Positions 12,684 through 14,665 of a stretch of 32,392 bases of DNA are shown piece by piece (the stretch's first letter is position 1; the number at the start of each line of letters is the position of its first letter). Made by a program: the position numbers and the translations under genes. The stretch spans positions 1-32,392 of the forward strand of contig CALBEG010000069.1 in NCBI GenBank assembly GCA_937927455.1. The letters run 5' to 3'. Source of the DNA: an uncultured Elioraea sp. (GTDB lineage: Bacteria > Pseudomonadota > Alphaproteobacteria > Acetobacterales > Acetobacteraceae). The notes beneath the pieces are model-generated. The model made no database searches. It was given only the letters and a program-made list of their open reading frames with translations, and was not told the origin of the DNA.

Positions 12684-12962
12684 ATGGCGAACACAGCTTC
12701 GGCGAAGAAGCGCATCCGGCAGATCGAGAAGCGCACGATGCGCAACCGCGCGCGGCGGTCGCGGCTTCGAACCTTCGCCAAGAAGGTGGAGAAGGCCATC
12801 GCTGCTGGCTCTGCGCAGGAAGCGCGCGCTGCCCTGAACGCGCTGACGCCTGAACTGATGCGTGCGGCGTCGAAGGGCGTGATCCATCGCAACGCCGTTG
12901 CACGCAAGCTCACGCGGCTCTCTCGGCACGTGAAGGCACTGGACGTCGCGCCCGCTTCGTGA
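12684..12962 (+). CDS. rpsT: 30S ribosomal protein S20
   Basis: This small basic protein binds 16S rRNA early in 30S assembly. The 92-residue sequence [31 protein letters not shown] is diagnostic, followed by the helical [15 protein letters not shown] and the conserved [22 protein letters not shown]. Its place just upstream of dnaA is a conserved feature of many alphaproteobacteria. A 272-bp regulatory region separates it from dnaA, so the two are probably transcribed independently. Confidence 0.98.
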
Positions 12963-13036
12963 CCGTCCCGTTTCGGCCGCTCTGTCGCCGTCATCCCGGC
13001 GGCAGTAATCTGGTCAAGTGAGCAGTGAAGGGGGCT

Positions 13037-13049
13037 CCAGATGATCTGG
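13037..13049. repeat. CCAGATGATCTGG palindrome upstream of dnaA
   Basis: This is a perfect 13-bp dyad (CCAGAT-G-ATCTGG). A further ATCTGG copy lies at 13008-13013, so one arm can also pair at longer range. It lies 18 bp before the candidate dnaA -35 box and could be an operator or part of the rpsT transcript end. Confidence 0.35.
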
Positions 13050-13066
13050 CTGTCCTCCACGGCCCA

Positions 13067-13097
13067 TTGACTCCGTTTCTGAACTCCAACCGATAAT
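13067..13097 (+). promoter_or_regulatory. Candidate dnaA promoter with a GANTC site
   Basis: TTGACT (13067-13072) and GATAAT (13092-13097) could form a promoter, although the 19-bp spacer is longer than ideal. The -35 box overlaps GACTC (13069-13073), a GANTC site of the kind methylated by CcrM in many alphaproteobacteria; in Caulobacter, methylation state influences dnaA transcription. The link here is inference. Confidence 0.4.
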
Positions 13098-13131
13098 GAC
13101 TTAGGCTTAGTCTCTGAAACGTAACATCACC

Positions 13132-13177
13132 GCAAATATTGATTTGCCTCCGCCGTGGCAACTTCCCTAAATGGAAG
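13132..13177. promoter_or_regulatory. Cluster of three inverted repeats in the dnaA leader
   Basis: Three perfect inverted repeats follow each other almost without gap: GCAAAT-attg-ATTTGC (13132-13147), TTGCC-N8-GGCAA (13144-13161) and CTTCC-N6-GGAAG (13162-13177). The preceding 65 bases are only about 40% GC, against about 70% around them. They lie 58-103 bases before the dnaA ATG. They may be an operator, an mRNA leader structure or part of an origin region. I found no TTATCCACA-type DnaA box. Confidence 0.45.
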
Positions 13178-13234
13178 GGTCTGCACCGCGCCCACGGCGC
13201 CAGCCGGGGCGGGGTATGCTTCGAGTTGCGCGCG

Positions 13235-14665
13235 ATGGAAGGGACCGTGGAAGAGAGCGGGTTTGGCGTGTCTCGCATCGACCCGGAAATCGGCGGGCAG
13301 TGGGCGCGTGTCCGCGGCCGGCTCCGCGAGGAGGTCGGCGAGGTCCAATACCGCACGTGGCTGCGCCAGATGACCCTCGCTGATGTCAGCGAGGACGAGG
13401 TCACCATCATTCTGCCGACACGGTTTCTGCGCGACTGGGTGAGGGCGCATTACGGCGATCGTATCCGCGCGCTGTGGCATGCGGAGAATGCACGCATCCG
13501 CCGCGTCGAACTGCGCATCGGCGCGCCGCATGCCGGGCTTGCCGAAGCGCTCGCGCCTGCGCCGGCCGCGGAGGCCAAGGAGCGGAGCTCCGTTGCCGAG
13601 GCCGCGCGCGGCGAGCTGCCCACCGATGCACGCCACGACCTCTCAGGCCCGCTCGACCCGCGCTTCACCTTCGGTACCTTCGTCGTCGGCAAACCGAACG
13701 AGTTCGCCTATGCCTGCGCGCGCCGAGTGGCGGAAAACGGGCCCACGCCGGGCTTCAACCCTCTGTTCCTCTACGGCGGTGTGGGCCTCGGCAAGACGCA
13801 CCTGATGCACGCGATCGCCTGGGCCATCCGTCAGCGCACCCCGCAACGCGCCGTCGCCTACATGTCGGCCGAGAAGTTCATGTACCGCTTCATCGCCGCC
13901 ATCCGCAGCCAGTCATCCGTCGAGTTCAAGGACAGCCTGCGCGCTGTGGATGTGCTGATGGTGGACGACCTGCAATTCCTGATCGGCAAGGACTCCACGC
14001 AGGAGGAGTTCTTCCACACCTTCAACGCCCTGGTCGATGCCGGCAAGCAGATCGTCGTCTCTGCCGACAAGTCGCCTTCCGATCTCTCGGGGATCGAGGA
14101 GCGGTTGCGCACCCGTCTCGGTTGCGGCATGGTCGCGGACATCCACGCCACCACCTACGAGCTGCGCATCGGCATCCTGCAGGCGAAGGCCGCCCTACAG
14201 GGCGTGGCCGTGCCGCAGAAGGTGATGGAGTTCATGGCGCACAAGATCACCACCAACGTGCGCGACCTCGAGGGTGCGCTCAATCGTGTCGTTGCGCACG
14301 CACAACTCGTCGGCCGCCCCATCACCCTAGAAAGCACGCAGGAGGTGCTGCGGGACCTTTTGCGCGCGCACGAACGGCGCGTCACCATCGAAGAGATCCA
14401 AAAACGCGTGGCGGAACACTACAATATCCGCCTCACCGACATGTTCTCCGCCCGCCGCGCCCGCGCCGTCGCTCGCCCGCGCCAGATCGCGATGTACCTC
14501 GCCAAGCAGCTCACCGCGCGTTCCCTGCCCGAGATCGGGCGCAAGTTCGGCAACCGCGACCACACCACGGTGATGCACGCCTGCGCGCGAATCGCCGAGC
14601 TGATGCAGAAAGACCCCTCTCTCGCCGAGGACGTCGAACTCCTCCGCCGCATGCTGGAGAGCTGA
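13235..14665 (+). CDS. dnaA: Chromosomal replication initiator protein DnaA
   Basis: DnaA binds origin DNA boxes, forms an ATP-dependent filament and melts the origin. I start it at the ATG at 13235 (MEGTVEESGFGVSRIDPEIG), giving 476 residues. The ORF-track TTG start 96 bases upstream would run through the inverted-repeat leader. No strong ribosome site precedes the ATG, so a start a few codons away is possible. Domain I covers about 20-95 (WARVRGRLREEVGEVQYRTWLRQM). A short Ala/Glu-rich linker leads to the AAA+ core with Walker A GGVGLGKTH (181-189), Walker B LMVDDLQF (241-248) and the sensor segment GIEERLRTRLGCGM. The C-terminal DNA-binding domain carries the signature RDHTTVMHA. rpsT lies upstream and lutB downstream, so the origin may be near, but it was not located. 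Confidence 0.97.
   Translation: MEGTVEESGFGVSRIDPEIGGQWARVRGRLREEVGEVQYRTWLRQMTLADVSEDEVTIILPTRFLRDWVRAHYGDRIRALWHAENARIRRVELRIGAPHAGLAEALAPAPAAEAKERSSVAEAARGELPTDARHDLSGPLDPRFTFGTFVVGKPNEFAYACARRVAENGPTPGFNPLFLYGGVGLGKTHLMHAIAWAIRQRTPQRAVAYMSAEKFMYRFIAAIRSQSSVEFKDSLRAVDVLMVDDLQFLIGKDSTQEEFFHTFNALVDAGKQIVVSADKSPSDLSGIEERLRTRLGCGMVADIHATTYELRIGILQAKAALQGVAVPQKVMEFMAHKITTNVRDLEGALNRVVAHAQLVGRPITLESTQEVLRDLLRAHERRVTIEEIQKRVAEHYNIRLTDMFSARRARAVARPRQIAMYLAKQLTARSLPEIGRKFGNRDHTTVMHACARIAELMQKDPSLAEDVELLRRMLES

Follow-up and report, generated by a model that had tools for sequence, protein, structure and literature searches.

Comparative analysis of the rpsT-dnaA gap points to a dnaA promoter with a putative clade-specific operator in two genera of Acetobacteraceae

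The gap between rpsT and dnaA, the initiator gene of chromosome replication, in an uncultured Elioraea sp. contains a conserved block of about 75 bp (13098-13172), found in nine genomes from two Acetobacteraceae genera, which probably represents the dnaA promoter combined with an operator specific to this clade. We favor this reading because the block is conserved, has a promoter signature and is unique to dnaA, and because of its position. The window, that is, the whole stretch of 32,392 nucleotides analyzed here, lies on contig 69 of an incomplete genome (2.5 Mb in 289 contigs, 88% complete). Gene order at the site is ubiE (minus strand), mutM, enoyl-CoA hydratase, rpsT and dnaA, as named from reading the ORF translations, and the named proteins most similar to its DnaA belong to Acetobacteraceae (Acetobacter sacchari, 72%; Acidiphilium iwatense, 69%). 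The features considered are the following.

12684-12962, plus strand: rpsT (ribosomal protein S20), the upstream gene; an ORF whose orthologue precedes dnaA in 90/90 family loci compared
13037-13049, no strand: dyad CCAGATGATCTGG, not conserved in the alignment of relatives
13069-13073, no strand: GACTC (GANTC) site, not conserved, found in the window only
13098-13172, plus strand: conserved dnaA control block, CTTA...CGTAACAT...CGCAAATAnTnATTTGC...CTAAA, from the alignment and a sequence model
13100-13127, plus strand: CTTAGG-N16-TAACAT, a conserved pair within the block with CTTA and TAACAT invariant; speculatively, a second promoter or an activator site
13132-13147, no strand: palindrome GCAAAT-ATTG-ATTTGC (GCAAATATTGATTTGC), putative operator overlapping the -35 element; arms conserved, exact form at dnaA only
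13144-13149, plus strand: predicted -35 element TTGCCT of the dnaA promoter, from the conserved TTGC and the family-wide enrichment of TTGCC-N16/17-CTA
13167-13172, plus strand: predicted -10 element CTAAAT of the dnaA promoter, from the relatives' alignment and the family enrichment
13179-13181, plus strand: transcription start predicted from promoter geometry, about 7 bases past the -10 element
13247-14665, plus strand: dnaA coding sequence, starting at GTG 13247 (or GTG 13268) and not at ATG 13235, from comparison of start codons among relatives

The start of dnaA at ATG 13235 is improbable because this codon is replaced in four of five same-genus relatives (ACG in G001; ATT in G002, G003 and G006). 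GTG 13247 is present in 6/6 genomes of the genus and the equivalent of GTG 13268 in 9/9, so that one of these two is probably the start. A coding explanation for the region itself was also considered, as the frame is open back to TTG 13139, but length changes in relatives break it.

When the rpsT-dnaA gaps of the genus were aligned, a single conserved block emerged at about 13098-13172, while the flanking gap was poorly conserved. Invariant columns reached 17/20 in the block versus 10-14/20 in the first dnaA codons. Over a 57-base stretch, each of the 21 species pairs tested showed higher identity in the block than at dnaA fourfold sites (for example, 0.86 versus 0.58), and the 78 bases directly upstream of the block, compared without gaps, were only 0.24-0.53 identical. 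The stretch 13095-13178 is present in all but one of the seven genomes of the genus, the exception (G004) being 81% complete, and the second genus having the block is g69 (G074 and G146). A sequence-only model built from eight genomes and run over 398 genomes of the family recovered its eight sources and an unseen ninth, G204 (E 1.3e-19), where the block also sits between rpsT and dnaA and contains the exact palindrome. Outside the clade, the model gave three weak matches (E 0.002-0.007 over 398 genomes), which is chance level. Within the block, CTTA and CGTAACAT(N)A are invariant and at fixed spacing in eight genomes, and a genome-wide search with the CTTA/TAACAT composite found a mismatch-free match at dnaA only. 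In G204 (locus L297), the arms of an inverted repeat of 10 bp, TCAAAGACAA...TTGTCTTTGA, lie on either side of the block's upstream part, and G074 and G146 have weaker forms of it.

The initial annotation had described an AT-rich region with three nearly contiguous inverted repeats at 13132-13177. The dip in GC content is clear (39.4% over 13081-13146 versus 69.6% for the window). Two of the repeats were found as described, GCAAATATTGATTTGC at 13132-13147 and CTTCCCTAAATGGAAG at 13162-13177, but the third, around 13146-13160, amounts to only 3-4 bp. Perfect dyads with 6-bp arms number two in 13030-13180, against 0.2 expected, and 4% of shuffles reach two; dyads within one sequence are thus only marginally above chance, and the comparative evidence is decisive. 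Conservation in relatives, proposed as the check on these elements, retained GCAAAT-N4-ATTTGC, whereas CCAGATGATCTGG, TTGACT/GATAAT, GANTC and CTTCC/GGAAG were absent or broken.

The block carries a predicted alphaproteobacterial housekeeping (sigma-70 type) promoter, TTGCCT-N17-CTAAAT, which has the TTG.. and.TA... hexamers 16-18 bases apart that define this type. Upstream of dnaA, TTGCCn is followed by CTA with a spacer of 16 in 20 and of 17 in 9 of 90 family loci (29/90 together), for a chance expectation of about 0.3 loci per spacing, and the pair occurs in zero of the 90 at spacers of 12-15 and 18-24. With an iterated two-box model, 45/89 loci scored above the 95% level of shuffles. The promoter that had been proposed before, TTGACT at 13067-13072 with GATAAT at 13092-13097, has to be abandoned: the strings are present, but their spacer is 19 bases, a standard scan misses them and they are not conserved. 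Three relatives (L034, L035 and L036, from G006, G003 and G002, respectively) have a second promoter-like site, TTGCC-N16-CTAG, soon after rpsT and upstream of the block, which is absent from the window.

The palindrome lies across this promoter, its right arm forming part of the -35 element. Its arms, GCAAAT and ATTTGC, are intact in 8/9 genomes (G005 breaks one, giving GCAAGA) and 98% paired, while the 4-base center varies among ATTG, AATC and AATG; fixed arms around a variable center are as expected for a dimer site, and an inverted repeat with arms conserved between species is what characterizes a dimeric operator. Whole-genome searches allowing one mismatch found the exact palindrome in seven of nine genomes searched, as a single copy that was in every case at dnaA; apart from these, the searches gave just three one-mismatch sites. 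As this genome-wide search for a regulon revealed no other convincing site, the regulator cannot be deduced from neighboring genes. The proposal of a compact dnaA operator is therefore the part of the initial annotation that gained support, with a predicted promoter and a strongly conserved dyad both present.

From these features, we infer protein binding to the palindrome, repression and the start site as follows. The housekeeping sigma factor would direct RNA polymerase to TTGCCT-N17-CTAAAT, and transcripts starting near 13180 would carry a leader about 65-90 bases long. A DNA-binding protein acting as a dimer would bind GCAAAT-N4-ATTTGC and, because the right arm belongs to the -35 element, would compete with the polymerase, so that dnaA would be repressed. 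The CTTAGG/CGTAACAT stretch directly upstream may offer a second contact site, for an activator, an alternative promoter or a second subunit. Two considerations temper this model. The role of the right arm in the -35 element would by itself conserve that arm, and the dyad may thus be incidental in part; moreover, a regulator having one genomic site only is unusual, which counts against the operator reading.

The main rival does without an operator: two tandem promoters, CTTAGG-N16-TAACAT and TTGCCT-N17-CTAAAT, with an AT-rich UP element, would account for the block, and the dyad would be a by-product of the A/T-rich sequence before the -35 element. We consider this rather unlikely. It fits with the invariance and fixed spacing of CTTA and TAACAT in eight genomes, and with the observation that GTAACATC acts as an apparent -10 element in another genus (L039); however, CTTAGG is a poor -35 element, and the left arm GCAAAT, which an UP element does not need, is nonetheless letter-perfect in 8/9 genomes. 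The suggestion that the repeats form a structure in the dnaA mRNA leader is very unlikely. Pairing is possible in the window for CTTCC/GGAAG and for CGCCGTGG/CCACGGCG, but the dyads at 13132-13147 and 13162-13177 overlap with the -35 and -10 elements, which places them outside the predicted transcript. Only 55% of alignment cells of the CTTCC/GGAAG helix are paired, and the long-range arms are lost in relatives. No Rfam covariance model matched the region at E up to 1.

It is extremely improbable that the region is part of a replication origin with divergent DnaA boxes, another proposal made at the outset. The region is AT-rich, single-copy and adjacent to dnaA, but, as had been noted before, it has no DnaA box, none being found in 12963-13246 at up to 2 mismatches. 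Since the 289 contigs rule out a whole-chromosome skew for the window's genome, we turned to G074, a related chromosome of 3.37 Mb in a single contig, whose cumulative skew (weak and noisy, sampled as 40 x 20 kb) has its minimum near 1.53 Mb, with hemE at 1.605 Mb and parB at 1.623 Mb, about 0.6 Mb away from dnaA at 2.223 Mb. The origin of Caulobacter, Cori, adjoins hemE, and the G074 minimum near hemE agrees with such a hemE-linked origin (PMC1914354); at dnaA, none of its marks (DnaA boxes, adjacency to hemE, skew minimum) was found. Before hemE on contig 286 of the window's genome (L180:1365-1418), an exact DnaA box, TTATCCACA, and a one-mismatch box, TCATCCACA, lie 45 bases apart, an arrangement kept in several genomes of the genus, making this stretch a candidate origin region of the window's species.

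Similarly, a switch in which CcrM methylation of GACTC 13069 controls dnaA is highly improbable in this clade. CcrM (RAMA) and GcrA domains were found in the six other genomes of the genus, the CcrM match of G002 being a weak fragment, and GANTC occurs at fixed places by the -35 element in other genera. Against the switch, the GANTC site of the window is missing in 8/8 clade relatives and is 75 bases away from the conserved -35 element, on its upstream side, and neither a CcrM nor a GcrA gene was found in the incomplete genome of the window. The CcrM C-terminal domain and GcrA are probably missing from this 88%-complete assembly because the contigs are absent. Two other kinds of binding site were rejected as well: no CtrA site was found in the dnaA upstream region at up to 2 mismatches, and an IHF site (WATCAA-N4-TTR) in the dyad, partially matched by eye in the window, is lost in most relatives.

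GANTC is depleted across the 90 rpsT-dnaA gaps of the family (84 sites versus about 140 expected from shuffles). Among 45 recognized family promoters, 7 (L018, L019, L190, L194, L197, L200 and L209) have a GANTC precisely 8 bases ahead of the dnaA -35 element and 4 have one within the spacer, at +11, against an expectation of about 0.11 for each position; these loci are related by descent, so the counts are not independent events. This positioning suggests that CcrM controls dnaA in other Acetobacteraceae. The window's clade has no GANTC by the -35 element and has the palindrome there instead, which suggests, without proving it, that the means of control at this promoter position differ between lineages. 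We would only tentatively propose, with little confidence, that a single-target regulator acting at the -35 palindrome replaced the CcrM/GANTC site of the other genera; if true, the replication-initiation switch was rewired in this clade. In any case, a 16-bp palindrome found only at dnaA, lying across the -35 element and conserved beyond fourfold sites, would be a specific bait for finding and testing such a regulator.

As far as we checked the literature, neither the palindrome nor its confinement to dnaA in two genera has been described. In E. coli, dnaA has the promoters p1 and p2 and is autoregulated through DnaA boxes (PMC8203912). The arrangement is alike in having an operator, here putative, inside the promoter region and possibly two promoters, but the palindrome differs in sequence and no TTATCCACA-like box, the mark of such autoregulation, lies in the promoter region here at up to 2 mismatches. 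Caulobacter dnaA shares with the locus studied here the gene order, a promoter in the rpsT-dnaA gap and an element just upstream of the -35 element. Its leader is long (155 bases) and under translational control, whereas the leader predicted here is 65-90 bases, and no GCAAAT dyad is reported in the account consulted. A further parallel is the Caulobacter RRF motif, common to the promoters of several replication genes, where it lies between the -35 and -10 elements (PMC1175088). Like the dyad described here, RRF is a site at which a repressor may act and which is linked to a core promoter in replication genes; it differs in position and in serving several genes, whereas our dyad overlaps the -35 element and is found at dnaA only.
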